Assembly (NCBI GenBank): GCA_946185495.1
Contig: CAMHJT010000009.1
Location: 1 to 35,737 of the forward strand
DNA: 35,737 nt
Direction of reading: 5' to 3'
From: an uncultured Clostridiaceae bacterium
Lineage (GTDB): Bacteria; Bacillota; Clostridia; Lachnospirales; Lachnospiraceae
The position numbers and the translations under genes were made by a program. Below, piece after piece: positions 19,486 to 34,995 of the stretch. The notes beneath the pieces are model-generated. The model made no database searches. It saw only the letters and a program-made list of their open reading frames with translations, and was not told where the DNA came from. Position 1 is the stretch's first letter. Each line of letters starts with the position of its first letter.

Positions 19486-19523
19486 ATTGGTAACTGCTCA
19501 GCAGGTGCTGAACAGTTACCAAT
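19486..19523. repeat. Solo copy of the left-end hairpin of the 133-bp repeat
   Basis: A 38-bp near-perfect inverted repeat running ATTGGTAACTG...CAGTTACCAAT with a two-base loop. Its inner 30 bp (19490-19519) match the left-end hairpin of the MITE at 19646-19675 at 28 of 30 positions. No other MITE sequence and no target duplication flank it. It coincides with the predicted +1 of the MATE transcript, so it would be a 5' hairpin or an operator. Confidence 0.8.
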
Positions 19524-19607: not shown

Positions 19608-19645
19608 ATTAGTTAATTTATCGGCACTGAATAGTTACACAGGCA

Positions 19646-19778
19646 GTAACTACTCAGCAGGTGCTGAGCAGTTACGCAGCGGGTGAAGCTTGCGCATCCT
19701 AATTCACCCGCTGCACGGCAAAATATACTGTTTTGGCACGGTCTGCGCAGTGAATGCGCAGACCTGCTGAGTAGTTAC
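19646..19778 (+). mobile_element. 133-bp MITE, intact copy with 8-bp target duplication
   Basis: Perfect 17-bp terminal inverted repeats GTAACTACTCAGCAGGT (19646-19662) and its complement (19762-19778), flanked by exact 8-bp direct repeats CACAGGCA (19638-19645 and 19779-19786). No coding capacity. Internal stem-loops: SL1 19646-19675 (one mismatch in 14 bp), SL2 GCAGCGGGTGAA/TTCACCCGCTGC (19676-19687 with 19703-19714, perfect 12 bp), SL3 GTCTGCGCA/TGCGCAGAC (19741-19749 with 19755-19763). IS66-family elements typically have ends starting GTAA and make 8-bp duplications, so an IS66-type transposase is the likely mobiliser (inference). It lies in the leader of the metal-uptake operon. Confidence 0.9.
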
Positions 19779-19817
19779 CACAGGCACTTCATGTAGAAAG
19801 AGACCGGAGATACAGCC

Positions 19818-20249: not shown

Positions 20250-21224
20250 ATGAAAAAAACAGGTTCTATTCTGCTTATCGCCATCCTGGCGACAGGCCTT
20301 CTTTCCGCATGCAGTTTCGAGCGTCCGGCAGTTTCGCCCGACTCGGATAAGCTTCAGATTGTCACTACTATTTTCCCGGAATACGACTGGGTACTCCAGA
20401 TTCTCGGAGAAAACCCGGCAAATGCCGATGTAACCCTGCTTCTGGACAACGGCGTTGACCTTCACAGCTATCAGCCCACCGCCAGCGACATCCTGAAAAT
20501 TTCCAATTGTGACCTATTTGTCTATATCGGCGGCGAATCTGACGAATGGGTGGAAGACGCAATGAAAGAAGCTGTGAACAAGGACATGATCGTCCTAAAC
20601 CTGCTGAAGCTGCTCGGCAGTTCGGCAAAGGAGGAAACCCTTCTGCCCGGTATGCAGGAGGAAGAGGAGGAGGCTTCCAGCGAGGAGCCGGAATTTGACG
20701 AGCATGTATGGCTCTCTTTAAAAAACGCCTCCGACCTTGTTCCGAAGATCGCGGAGGCATTGGAAAAAGCAGACCCCTCCAACGCCAATGTCTACAGAAA
20801 GAATGCCGAATCCTATCTCGAACAGCTCACAGCCCTCGATGAAGCATATCAGGACGCCGTTTCAAACGGCAGCCGCAATACGCTTGTGTTCGGCGATCGT
20901 TTTCCATTCCGCTACCTTGCGGATGATTACGGGCTTGACTGCTTCGCCGCATTTTCCGGATGTTCCGCCGAGACAGAAGCCAGCTTTGAGACCGTCACAT
21001 TTCTTGCCAGGAAGATAGATGAGCTGAAGCTGCCCGCCATCATGACCATCGAAGGTACAGACCACAAAATCGCAGAGACCATCATCCAGAACACCACATC
21101 AAAGAACCAGAAGGTTCTCCCGCTGGATTCCATGCAGTCCACCACCTCAAGGGATGTAAAAAACGGCAGCACTTATCTCTCCATCATGGAGAGAAACCTT
21201 GCCGTCTTAAAAGAAGCGCTATAG
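20250..21224 (+). CDS. Metal (Zn/Mn) ABC transporter substrate-binding lipoprotein, ZnuA-like
   Basis: Cluster A-I solute-binding protein that delivers a divalent metal to the ZnuBC channel at the outer face of the membrane. 324 residues; signal peptide ending in lipobox LLSAC with lipidated Cys21. Metal ligands by position: His72 (DLHSYQPT) and His152 (DEHVWLS). The third His of classic ZnuA is replaced by Asp216 (FGDRFPFRYLADDYGLD). In place of the His-rich loop of ZnuA there is a Glu-rich stretch (136-148). Specificity between Zn and Mn is therefore uncertain; the Cys-rich neighbour favours Zn. Followed after 106 bp by the ATPase gene. Confidence 0.9.
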   Translation: MKKTGSILLIAILATGLLSACSFERPAVSPDSDKLQIVTTIFPEYDWVLQILGENPANADVTLLLDNGVDLHSYQPTASDILKISNCDLFVYIGGESDEWVEDAMKEAVNKDMIVLNLLKLLGSSAKEETLLPGMQEEEEEASSEEPEFDEHVWLSLKNASDLVPKIAEALEKADPSNANVYRKNAESYLEQLTALDEAYQDAVSNGSRNTLVFGDRFPFRYLADDYGLDCFAAFSGCSAETEASFETVTFLARKIDELKLPAIMTIEGTDHKIAETIIQNTTSKNQKVLPLDSMQSTTSRDVKNGSTYLSIMERNLAVLKEAL

Positions 21225-22077: not shown

Positions 22078-22919
22078 TTGAAAAGCTAGGCATGTACCTG
22101 CAATACCCCTTCGTGCGCTACGCGCTGATCGTCGGCATCCTGATCGCGCTCTGCTCCTCCCTGCTCGGCGTCACGCTGGTCTTGAAACGTTTTTCACTGA
22201 TTGGAGACGGCCTGTCCCATGTAGCCTTCGGCGCGATGACAATTGCTGCAGTCCTCAACCTGACCAGCCAAATGCTCGTGATCTTGCCCGTCACCGTCAT
22301 CAGTGCAGTTTTTCTCCTGCGCTCCGGCCGGAACGCGAAGATCCGGGGAGATGCAGCAGTCGCGATGATCTCAGTCGGTTCACTGGCCTTTGGATACCTG
22401 ATCATGAATATTTTTTCCACCTCCTCCAATCTGTCCGGAGATGTCTGCAGCACCCTGTTCGGCTCCACCTCCATCCTGACGCTGACAGAGCGGGATGTGG
22501 CAATCTGTACCGTTTTATCCATCGCAGTTGTTGTGACCTTTATCCTGTTTTACAACAAGATTTTTGCCGTCACCTTCGATGAGGATTTTTCCAGGGCAGC
22601 AGGTACACATACAGACCGCTATCAGCTGCTGATCTCCATCGTGGTCGCCGTCATCATCGTGCTGGCCATGAATCTGGTGGGGTCGCTCCTGATCTCCGCC
22701 CTGATCATTTTCCCGGCACTCTCAGCCATGCGGCTATTTCACAGCTTCAGGCAGGTTACCGTCTGCTCGGCGGTTCTCTCCGTTTTCTGCGCCGCACTGG
22801 GAATTCTGATTTCAATCCTGGCCGGAACCCCGGTGGGATCTACCATTGTTGCTGTTGACACTGCCGCCTTTATCATTTGCTGCGCGGCAGGACTGATTCT
22901 TGGAGGAATACGAAAATGA
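22074..22919 (+). CDS. Metal ABC transporter permease, ZnuB-like (ABC-3 family)
   Basis: Integral membrane subunit of the uptake system. 281 residues with about eight membrane segments. GDGLSHVAFGAMTIAAVL is the ABC-3 family stretch that contacts the ATPase; NLVGSLLISALIIFPALSAM is the second conserved stretch. Coupled to the ATPase gene upstream and to the lipoprotein gene downstream by 4-base ATGA overlaps at both ends, so the transporter and the lipoprotein form one translation unit. Confidence 0.94.
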   Translation: MIEKLGMYLQYPFVRYALIVGILIALCSSLLGVTLVLKRFSLIGDGLSHVAFGAMTIAAVLNLTSQMLVILPVTVISAVFLLRSGRNAKIRGDAAVAMISVGSLAFGYLIMNIFSTSSNLSGDVCSTLFGSTSILTLTERDVAICTVLSIAVVVTFILFYNKIFAVTFDEDFSRAAGTHTDRYQLLISIVVAVIIVLAMNLVGSLLISALIIFPALSAMRLFHSFRQVTVCSAVLSVFCAALGILISILAGTPVGSTIVAVDTAAFIICCAAGLILGGIRK

Positions 22920-23608
22920 AGAAAATAATCTGTCTCATGCTCTCTTGCACCCTGTTGATCGGTAGTACCGGCTGTGGAAACGAAAGTGCTGCCGCCAGAA
23001 CGGGTAATCAGCCCACCGGCATCAATGCTGTCATGGAGGCCGAAATGAAAAAAGCCGACGAAAGCCTTTCCAATGATACACAGACACAAGACGCCAAGCT
23101 TTCCACTGATACGCAGACACAAGACGCCATGCCTTCCGCTGATACACAGACGCAAGACGCCATGCCTTCCGCTGATACGCAGACGCAAGATGCCATGCCT
23201 TCCGCTGATACACAGACACAAGACGCCAAGCTTTCCACTGATGGTGCAGTCAAAACAACCCCGGATGCTGTCGATGTGGACCTGACCGCGCTTTCCAGCA
23301 CCATGGTCTACTCCGAGGTCTATAACATGATGTCCGCACCGGAAAGCTATATCGGAAAAACCGTCAAGATGAGTGGAAACTTTGCCTTTTACCATGATGA
23401 GGCATCCGGCAAATACTATTTTGCCTGCGTGATCAAGGACGCCACAGCCTGCTGCTCCCAGGGCATTGAATTCATTCTGCCGGAAAGCTATTCCTATCCG
23501 GAGGATTATCCCTCCCCCGGGGATGACATTACCGTGATCGGAACCTTCGACACCTACCAGGAGGGCGAGGAAACCTACTGCACCCTCAGAAACGCGACAC
23601 TTCTATAA
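22916..23608 (+). CDS. Lipoprotein with 11-residue repeats and a CCSQG domain
   Basis: 230 residues. Signal peptide MKKIICLMLSCTLLIGSTGC with lipobox GSTGC, Cys20. Residues about 54-108 are five 11-residue repeats (DTQTQDA...), a flexible spacer. The C-terminal domain (about 125-230) contains YIGKTVKMSGNFAFYHD, YYFACVIKDATACCSQGIEF and GDDITVIGTFDTY, a beta-rich, OB-like pattern with a CysCys pair. The domain looks like a conserved Firmicutes family whose members I cannot name with certainty. Start at 22916 is fixed by the ATGA overlap with znuB and GGAGG upstream. Context suggests an accessory role in metal capture or envelope zinc handling. Confidence 0.8.
   Translation: MKKIICLMLSCTLLIGSTGCGNESAAARTGNQPTGINAVMEAEMKKADESLSNDTQTQDAKLSTDTQTQDAMPSADTQTQDAMPSADTQTQDAMPSADTQTQDAKLSTDGAVKTTPDAVDVDLTALSSTMVYSEVYNMMSAPESYIGKTVKMSGNFAFYHDEASGKYYFACVIKDATACCSQGIEFILPESYSYPEDYPSPGDDITVIGTFDTYQEGEETYCTLRNATLL
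23075..23239 (+). repeat. 33-bp minisatellite, five units, in the lipoprotein gene
   Basis: Five contiguous 33-bp units starting at 23075, 23108, 23141, 23174 and 23207. Units 1 and 5 are identical; units 2-4 share AAGACGCCATGCC-like cores and differ from each other by one to three silent changes. Since 33 is a multiple of three, copy number can change without shifting frame. Confidence 0.92.
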
Positions 23609-28188: not shown

Positions 28189-28294
28189 GTAACTACTCAG
28201 CAGGTCTGCACATTCACCGCGCAGACTGTGCCAAAACAATATATTTTCAGCGGGTGAATTAAGATGCTCCAGCTTTACCCGGACTGCTTAACGC
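28189..28294 (-). mobile_element. Truncated copy of the 133-bp MITE, inverted
   Basis: The right terminal repeat GTAACTACTCAGCAGGT is exact at 28189-28205. The interior follows the reverse complement of the copy at 19646-19778 with scattered changes and a 6-bp deletion after the TTTT near 28247. SL3 keeps its pairing through a G-U pair. Homology runs out near 28294, where the left terminal repeat should be; here the sequence becomes the 3' end of the Nudix gene. No target duplication can be assigned. Confidence 0.85.
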
Positions 28295-31791: not shown

Positions 31792-31831
31792 TACAATTTG
31801 TATCTGCGCAGCGCGCGAAGCCATCCCATCC

Positions 31832-32935
31832 TCATTCATACGCTTCCCACCAGGCCTCATGATACTCCGCGATCTCCTCGAACCGGACCGTCTCGCCAAT
31901 TTTGGGCGTTGCGATGGAAAGCTCCTGCTCCTTCGCCGCAGCGGTCACACGCAAAATAGAATCATCCCATGCGTGGTTGCAGATGCAGAAGGTCCCCCAG
32001 TGTACCGGGATCATCCACTGCGTCTGTGTGTCAAGTCCTGCCTGCACCGTCTGCTCCGGAAACATATGGACATTCGACCAGGCGGGATCGTACTGCCCGC
32101 ATTCTGCAATCATGAGCTCCGGCGCTCCCAGCTTCTCCCGCACCTCCTGAAAGACCTGATTGTACCCTCCATCTCCGGTATAATATACCCTGTGAAACCC
32201 GTTGCTGAGGTAATATCCGCCCCACAGGGTGCTGTTTCCCTTCATGGGATTGCGCCCGGTAAAATGCTGGGACGGCGTCAGCGTGATCTCCATCCCTCCA
32301 AGCTCTGCGGTCTCCCACCAGTCCAGGGCACAGATCCTGTCCTCCCCGATCCCCCATCCGCGAAGAATGGCATCCACGCCTAAGGGCACCACGAACCGCT
32401 TCACCTTCGGGGCAAGGTCGCGGATCGACTGGTAATCCAGATGATCATAATGGTCATGGGACAGCAGCAGCACATCCAGTTCCGGCATCTCTTCCGCAGA
32501 CATCGGAACCTCGGAGAACCTTTTCACCCCCGCAAAGGAGACCGGCGAGCTGTATTTGGACAGAACCGGATCTGCCAGAAGATTCACCTCGCCCATCTGC
32601 AGCACAAAGGCAGAATGCCCAAACCAGGTAAAGGTCAGCGCGTTCTCCTCCGGCTGGGACAAAAGCTCCGGCTTCTCAGCCTTGATCATAGTCTTCGGCG
32701 TCCTGCGGCTGCTTCTGTCATAGCCCTCTCCCGTCATCACCCCGATCTCATTCATATTGTGGAACCGGTCATCATAGTAGTTTGACGCCTGCTCCGCAAA
32801 AAGCTTCCGTTCTGCCTCATCCGGAAGCTTGCCTACGGTTGGAGATAATTCAAGAAATAATATAACAGCCACTATGATCAAAACCAGAATACAGACTATG
32901 ATCAAAACAATCCTTCCAAATACCTTTAACACCAT
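31832..32935 (-). CDS. Membrane-anchored metallo-beta-lactamase-fold hydrolase (NAPE-PLD/UlaG-like)
   Basis: 367 residues: N-terminal membrane anchor (about 8-29), then a beta-lactamase-fold domain. TFTWFGHSAFVLQMGEVNLLADPVLS opens the fold; LSHDHYDHLD (158-167) is the HxHxDH metal site; SQHFTGR, YYTGDGGY, MIAECGQYDP and PVHWGTF complete it. The pattern is that of N-acyl-phosphatidylethanolamine phospholipase D-like and RomA-like proteins, so a lipid or phosphodiester substrate at the outer membrane face is plausible but not shown. AGGAGAG lies 7-8 nt before the ATG. Confidence 0.88.
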   Translation of the reverse strand: MVLKVFGRIVLIIVCILVLIIVAVILFLELSPTVGKLPDEAERKLFAEQASNYYDDRFHNMNEIGVMTGEGYDRSSRRTPKTMIKAEKPELLSQPEENALTFTWFGHSAFVLQMGEVNLLADPVLSKYSSPVSFAGVKRFSEVPMSAEEMPELDVLLLSHDHYDHLDYQSIRDLAPKVKRFVVPLGVDAILRGWGIGEDRICALDWWETAELGGMEITLTPSQHFTGRNPMKGNSTLWGGYYLSNGFHRVYYTGDGGYNQVFQEVREKLGAPELMIAECGQYDPAWSNVHMFPEQTVQAGLDTQTQWMIPVHWGTFCICNHAWDDSILRVTAAAKEQELSIATPKIGETVRFEEIAEYHEAWWEAYE

Positions 32936-33872: not shown

Positions 33873-33992
33873 CTTGTAAAACTCCTATCTCTTCTATATT
33901 CTCTGTAACCCTGCCAGCCTTTCTGAAATAATCTTCTCCTGTGAGCCAATCGCCTCAGAATGCTGCAAGCCTTCTTGATCCTGCATGGCTCA

Positions 33993-34046
33993 GTACAATG
34001 TTTTGTCACAGTCTACGCAGCAAATACTCATACCTGCTGAATATCT
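33993..34046 (+). mobile_element. Decayed right half of the 133-bp MITE
   Basis: From about 33993 the plus strand matches the right half of the intact MITE (TGTTTT..CAC..GTCT.CGCAG...ACCTGCTGA) at roughly three in four positions by eye. The sequence to the left, back to a possible GTAAC at 33905, aligns poorly. It sits between yebC and the leucine-rich-repeat gene. The oldest-looking copy in the window. Confidence 0.65.
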
Positions 34047-34862: not shown

Positions 34863-34995
34863 GTATCTGCTCAGCAGTTGCTGACCGGATACGCAGCAGA
34901 TGAAGATTGTGTATCCTAATCCACCCTCTCTACGGCTGAATATACTGTTTTGGCACGGTCTGCACAGTGAATGCGCAGACCTGTCGAGTAGTTAC
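34863..34995 (+). mobile_element. 133-bp MITE, full-length diverged copy
   Basis: Same length (133 bp) and order as the copy at 19646-19778. The right half is nearly identical (ATATACTGTTTTGGCACGGT onward, then TCTGCACAGTGAATGCGCAG), the left half more changed. Terminal repeats match each other at about 12 of 17 positions. Flanking 8-mers GCTCGTTC and CCTTTTTC agree at five positions, perhaps a decayed target duplication. SL1 keeps its closing pairs by a paired change (GTATC/GATAC here, GTAAC/GTTAC in the other copy); SL2 is largely lost. It lies between serS and the leucine-rich-repeat gene. Confidence 0.88.

Follow-up and report, generated by a model that had tools for sequence, protein, structure and literature searches.

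The 133-bp repeat at positions 19646-19778 of the window, the window being the whole of contig 9 (35,737 nucleotides) of a 2.91-Mb assembly in 257 contigs that is 92% complete, is very probably (about 0.84) a non-autonomous MITE of the IS66 family, belonging to the ISBst12-like, single-transposase group. An earlier sequence-only reading of the window had proposed an IS66-mobilised MITE present in very high copy number. In substance it was right, and the data presented below support, beyond it, the existence of sibling families across genera, of an IS66 subgroup with similar ends and of 27-30-bp forms of the element. The features found in the window are the following.

19490..19519, + strand: solo 30-bp copy of the left palindrome; flanks match 2/8, no duplication
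19638..19645, no strand: left target duplication CACAGGCA, 8 bp (seen directly)
19646..19778, + strand: full-length MITE copy 1, 133 bp, the reference copy (seen directly, counted, profile)
19646..19662, + strand: left terminal inverted repeat GTAACTACTCAGCAGGT (seen directly, genome end search)
19646..19675, + strand: left-end 30-bp palindrome, made of the end (L), 2 bp and an inverted internal copy of the end (R', 19662-19675)
19680..19710, + strand: predicted middle hairpin CGGGTGAA...TTCACCCG (folding)
19740..19764, + strand: right subterminal hairpin GGTCTGCGCA-GTGAA-TGCGCAGACC (folding, comparison)
19762..19778, - strand: right terminal inverted repeat, complementary 17/17 to the left one (seen directly)
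19779..19786, no strand: right target duplication CACAGGCA, 8 bp (seen directly)
28189..28294 (profile: 28189-28293), - strand: copy 3, inverted, model positions 25-133
33981..34043, + strand: copy 4, worn right-half copy, model positions 66-128
34863..34995, + strand: full-length copy 2, 133 bp, worn ends, no duplication left

Copy 1 is short and non-coding, with no overlapping open reading frame (ORF) of at least 80 aa, and its perfect terminal repeats and exact flanking duplication, as first described, were found again both by direct view and by counting. The other full-length copy has indeed the same length and is 85% identical to it over 134 nt, with imperfect ends. Copy 3, an inverted truncated copy as reported, matches the model only from position 25, and therefore lacks the first 24 bp. 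The decayed half copy also exists, but the profile shifts it from the proposed 33993-34046 to 33981-34043. In addition, the solo copy at 19490-19519 had been overlooked, and a further weak profile match lies at 31805-31847 (E 0.0058). The intergenic position claimed for all copies holds for copies 1-4 with respect to Pfam-supported ORFs; however, copy 3 touches the end of an ORF at 28288, and copies 2, 3 and 4 are overlapped by mechanical ORFs without Pfam support. The 30-bp left-end palindrome was also found alone elsewhere in the same genome, and sibling elements of other genera have, at their right end, a hairpin similar to the right subterminal one. Elsewhere in the window, tandem repeats of 33 bp, a multiple of three, occupy positions 23024-23275 inside the ORF 22877-23608, which lies downstream of a zinc-uptake-like ABC gene set (the znuA-like ORF 20250-21224 and its partners). 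In a scan with the znuA-like protein, the best 80 of 566 relatives show 55-67% identity and are mostly rumen or gut Lachnospiraceae MAGs, which points to a probable gut Lachnospiraceae host.

The very high copy number suspected from the window was confirmed on the genome scale. A blastn search with the MITE returned at least 40 matches over most of the query, with identity down to 86%, plus shorter ones (40 of 195 first-look candidates were scored in this search). The 17-base end, allowing up to 3 mismatches, occurs at 244 places (114 forward, 130 reverse), compared to 3 (2 and 1) for the reversed control. A profile search of 833,312 bases of the same genome, taken from the starts of contigs 1-45 (20 kb at most from each) minus contigs 3, 4, 17 and 18, with the whole window replacing contig 9, detected 54 traces, while the same bases shuffled or reversed gave none; therefore, the copies in the window are not due to chance. 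These traces are divided into 14 full-length copies, 5 solo units, 10 left parts, 15 right parts and 10 internal pieces. By extrapolation, we estimate about 190 traces in the whole genome, worn pieces included, within a range of about 100-200. Contig breaks fall inside the MITE at 5 of 38 contig ends examined, on contigs picked partly for bearing a MITE end; the element explains some of the contig breaks of this draft genome, and long contigs are, given these breaks, probably depleted of recent copies. Clustered copies were also observed. At L054:3136-3535 (contig 191), three copies lie within 400 bp, a full-length duplicated one between two partial ones, and at L085:16987-17172 a full-length MITE stands beside a solo unit. 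An 8-mer around CTTATAG is present there three times, which looks as though one element had inserted next to the duplication of the other.

We then considered the sequences flanking the copies. Among the 30 best copies of the genome, the two flanks agree at 8/8 positions in 8 cases and at 7/8 in 10, some set boundaries being off by a base or two. In the wider set of 141 end pairs, which contains these 30 copies as well as false pairings, 18 pairs agree at 8/8, 17 at 7/8 and 8 at 6/8, while re-paired flanks give 0.37, 0.46 and 0.9, respectively; at least 7/8 positions are thus shared in 35 of the 141 pairs, against 0.83 expected. Exact flanking repeats in this set are 18 at a length of 8 bp, 1 at 7, 2 at 4 and none at 9-12. 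The 35 elements with at least 7/8 matching flanks measure 133 bp (18 elements) or 30 bp (7), with one each of 29, 47, 72, 82, 91, 112, 132, 134, 135 and 171 bp. The 18 exact duplications are rich in A or T (98 of 144 bases, compared to 48% in the genome sample). By a crude ORF call in which ORFs cover 88% of the sequence, elements with duplications are intergenic in 22 of 23 cases in this genome and in 15 of 16 among the siblings, and the same call made evident no preference for convergent or divergent gaps.

IS66-family ends typically begin GTAA. The assignment of the ends and of the 8-bp duplication to this family is sustained by transposase-bearing IS66 elements with similar ends, found both within the genus and in three further genera, as well as by ISDge4, discussed below. 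Within the genus, 7 of 26 genomes contain an IS66 transposase match (15 loci). Specifically, genome G003, of the same genus, carries at L063:834-2674 an IS66 element of 1841 bp with 19/19 terminal inverted repeats GTAACTATTCAGGTCACCC (starting GTAACTATTCAG) and the 8-bp duplication AAGATATA; its transposase is split by a stop into two pieces of 378 and 119 aa, which match DDE_Tnp_IS66 and DUF6444. When the 378-aa piece was searched against 397 genomes (E up to 1e-30), 5 showed a match, and the genome of the window showed none. The matches at 54-66% identity, in G365, G063 and G350, have ends reading GTAACTATTCAG or GTAACTGTTCAG followed by AACC or TACC, and one G063 end reads GTATCTGTTCAG. Compared with the first 12 bases of the MITE, the ends of this subgroup agree at 11/12 positions in L063, L280 and L282-L284 and at 9 and 10 in L281, and at the five loci measured they lie 18-20 bp outside the transposase stop, while a different IS66 element of G151 (GTAAACGTCAAACC) agrees at 5/12 only. 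In addition, the left ends of the sibling elements of G324 (GTAACTATTCAGTACC) equal a G350 IS66 end over 16 bases.

This likeness stops 12-16 bases into the ends; for the MITE interior, the IS66 loci gave no convincing match (best 17 bp, E 0.04). Among the IS66 elements of the subgroup, L063 is the only one for which a duplication was observed, and that of G063 has none. A scan of the 15 IS66 loci of the genus with the 16-base MITE end, up to 4 mismatches, found nothing, because the L063 end differs after base 12. When four IS66 loci of the genus and ten loci of MITE-bearing genomes (L201-L210) were scanned for inverted repeats with an exact 8-bp duplication, L063 alone was recovered, and a looser end scan over 22 loci added no convincing pair. 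At L201-L210, the IS66 loci of MITE-bearing genomes, no such pair was present, and three of these loci, from G151, end in GTAAACGTC. Moreover, G003 has neither the MITE nor a related 16-base end; no duplicated short element was found in the six end-bearing G063 and G350 loci examined, some of which are cut by contig ends; the genome with most sibling copies, G324, has a single IS66 match, below cut-off; and no transposase was noticed by eye in the translations inside or beside the ends at 11 loci of other genomes. The enzyme and duplicated short elements were, therefore, not seen together in one genome, which slightly lowers our confidence in the IS66 reading.

In the genome of the window, a search for the IS66 transposase domain (PF03050) gave no match. 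The proposal of an IS66-mobilised MITE thus stands with regard to the like-ended IS66 elements of relatives, and so does the expected similarity of the terminal repeats to IS66 ends, but the resident IS66 element to which these repeats were to be compared was not found in this assembly. As the latter is 92% complete and in 257 contigs, the absence is weak evidence; it makes less likely that the family is still active here, not that it was made by IS66.

The same MITE was looked for in relatives: blastn (E up to 0.001) found it in none of 59 other genomes, 25 of them from the same genus. The end pattern GTAACTRYTCAGCAGRT is present in 10 of 397 genomes of the bacterial family, that of the window included, with controls at 0. 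Many loci with this pattern contain short elements flanked by exact 8-bp duplications, while at others only one end is present or the duplication is missing. The 16-base left end GTAACTRTTCAGWACC, without mismatch, occurs 167 times in G324, 91 in G442, 43 in G298, 39 in G151, 33 in G270, 12 in G350 and 9 in G063, once each in G000, G365 and G390, and not in G003 or the controls. Among 323 end pairs at 66 loci of 12 other genomes, 30 have flanks matching at 8/8 and 12 at 7/8, where 0.7 and 0.4 were expected, and exact repeats of any other length from 5 to 12 are zero; none of the duplicated pairs comes from G063, G350 or G365. The duplicated sibling elements measure 27-233 bp, one pairing of 1042 bp looking false. 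A class-wide search with a 19-base left end was positive in 1 of 391 genomes (G076, of the same bacterial family), and bounds the range only roughly because the MITE of the window is itself without that end.

A second type of element, of 142 bp, was observed in G298 (L270:1108-1249 and L288:186-327), with ends like GTTACTGTTYAC and exact 8-bp duplications. Its ends resemble sequences beside a distant IS66 match in L215 (GTTACTGTTCACACCC), and this resemblance suggests a possible parallel MITE-IS66 pair. A plasmid search gave no match, and viral contigs gave 0 for one 24-base pattern. Five of 50,697 phage records (MT839789, MT836459, MT837311, MT836432 and MT839453, all from human faeces and without annotation) contain 14-27% of a sibling element at 82-100% identity.

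To look for empty sites, about 200 kb each of G442 and G151, two species of one genus with 92% identity over aligned stretches, were compared. Opposite the 142-bp G151 element at 231084-231225, G442 has a clean empty site with 97.9% identical flanks; opposite the 27-bp G151 solo at 129801-129827, whose duplication is 7/8, it has a clean single-copy site with 88.8% flanks. In all, the five G151 elements in 220 kb include two with clean empty sites, two filled in both species and one, of 41 bp, filled in both. The 11 G442 elements in 180 kb comprise five flagged as facing an empty site, two filled in both, one of 41 bp filled in both, two partial cases and one with no match. Of the flagged sites, 92189 (233 bp) is fairly clean, 42185, 94497 and 140578 have junction gaps and 73029 is poorly aligned. 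At one orthologous site the element is 142 bp long in G442 and 233 bp long in G151, flanked by the duplication gaaacgaa in each, and at another site both species have 233 bp. The simplest explanation is that sibling elements inserted after the split of the two species, and such species-specific insertions are usable as markers. Around window copy 1 the sister species are too diverged for such a comparison: in seven of them the transporter gene is 65-68% identical, and in the six where both genes were hit, znuA is found on a different contig.

A peculiar class is that of the solo units. Of 70 distinct 30-mers in the part of the genome examined (6 mismatches at most), 41 continue into a recognisable MITE interior, which leaves 29 solos. 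The flanks of these 29 match at 8/8 in 10 cases and at 7/8 in 6 (16/29 in total, against 0.6 expected); among the remaining 13, a few are perhaps worn left parts. Sibling left units of 27 bp with a duplication occur in G324 (8/8, twice), G151 (7/8) and G442 (8/8, twice more), and right-end units of 29 bp with 7/8 duplications exist in the same genome (L036) and in a sibling (L175).

There is about an even chance that the solos are not transposed units but arose in place by deletion, full-length copies having lost the stretch that separates the internal from the terminal arm. The two arms are direct repeats, so that such a deletion is expected; shortened-interior forms of 72, 82 and 91 bp with both ends and an exact duplication exist, and the two lengths found at the gaaacgaa site indicate that in-place size changes, in whichever direction, occur. 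The 'nearly precise excision' of Tn10 is a comparable deletion. Against this explanation, the arms can be told apart at position 24, where C is present in 28 of 29 internal arms and T in all 28 terminal arms scored: by manual reading, 15 of the 16 duplicated solos carry the internal-arm base, although slippage starting from one arm or the other would be expected to yield both bases. Symmetric slippage is thereby made less likely, without any proof that the units transpose. In addition, no solo was found opposite a full copy at the three orthologous sites examined, two of which have junction gaps, and an identical 40-bp element stands at two G270 sites with different 8-bp duplications (L178:1478-1517 and L186:1478-1517).

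We put forward tentatively, and as a somewhat doubtful proposal, that the 27-30-bp units, consisting of an end followed directly by its full or partial inverted copy, may themselves have transposed, with the internal inverted end serving an ISBst12-group transposase as a substitute for the right one. If so, the MITE would have three ends and release what may be the smallest DNA units known to transpose, presumably too short to form an ordinary loop when both ends are bound. The intact 8-bp duplications of the 27-30-bp forms lead one to ask how little DNA a DDE transposase can move.

As for the family as a whole, it is highly unlikely to be a structured RNA or regulatory hairpin kept by selection, with mobility only in the past. 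Folding is stronger than in shuffled sequences on both strands (z -7.9 and -8.4 for copy 1, -3.5 and -3.3 for copy 2), but inverted repeats must fold. Among 79 distinct right ends, one stem pair often changes on both sides across genera (C-G 42, T-A 15 and T-G 7), and the number of paired cells (666/790) is slightly above the best of 500 shuffles (maximum 664, mean 653), which lends weak support to a possibly conserved right-end hairpin. On the other side, Rfam gave no match at gathering score in the window or in 8 loci, full length is kept in only 14 of the 54 sampled traces, and the 25 other genomes of the genus that were searched are devoid of the MITE. Barely credible is a spread as REP/REPIN-type palindromes by a RAYT (Y1 HUH) transposase in place of a DDE enzyme: solo 30-bp palindromes, hairpins, intergenic position and high copy number would fit, but REP elements are not known to leave a target duplication such as the sharp 8-bp one seen here across many element sizes and several genera, and DDE-type IS66 elements with similar ends exist.

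For the IS66-type MITE, the most plausible course of events would be the following. The DDE transposase of an ISBst12-like element would have recognised GTAACTRCTCAG-type (GTAACTRCTCAGCA-type) ends in trans, and copies would have inserted mostly between genes, at sites rich in A+T, with 8-bp duplications left behind. In this genome the family would thereby have reached the extrapolated 190 traces or so, worn pieces included, while sibling families spread through other genera of the bacterial family; the enzyme would be absent from the assembly or lost. Within its left end the element holds a second, inverted copy of that end, and the 30-bp unit alone makes up part of the population.

A repeat family abundant in several genera of one bacterial family would thus be tied to one transposase group. 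We found no description of it in the open-licence literature, sequence-string matches being judged by title. The closest described system is ISDge4 of Deinococcus geothermalis (IS66 family, ISBst12 group), reported to transpose, for which the ends GTGACTACTCAGCA and GTAACTGCTCAGCA and the 8-bp direct repeat CCTCGATG are given (PMC12898284). On the basis of the printed ends, both agree at 13/14 positions with GTAACTACTCAGCA here, and the repeat has the same length; unlike the MITE, ISDge4 encodes a 449-aa transposase and resides in a distant host (PMC12898284). The L063 element and its subgroup (G365, G063, G350) agree with the MITE at 9-11 of the first 12 end bases and share with it, in L063, the 8-bp duplication, whereas L063 is 1.84 kb long, encodes a split transposase (DUF6444 and DDE_Tnp_IS66) and differs in the bases after the twelfth. 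MITEAba12 (111-114 bp; PMC6382973) and MITEPsy1 (100 nt; PMC3189936) are likewise non-autonomous, assigned to insertion sequences with similar ends and flanked by target duplications; they belong, however, to other IS families, with duplications of 9 bp and 4 nt, respectively, and in the descriptions available they have fewer copies per genome and no mention is made of a 30-bp form (PMC6382973, PMC3189936). REPINs and REP elements resemble the MITE as high-copy intergenic palindromes, from which it differs by its sharp 8-bp duplication and its DDE-transposon ends. What is new here are the solo 27-30-bp copies with the same duplications as the full elements.
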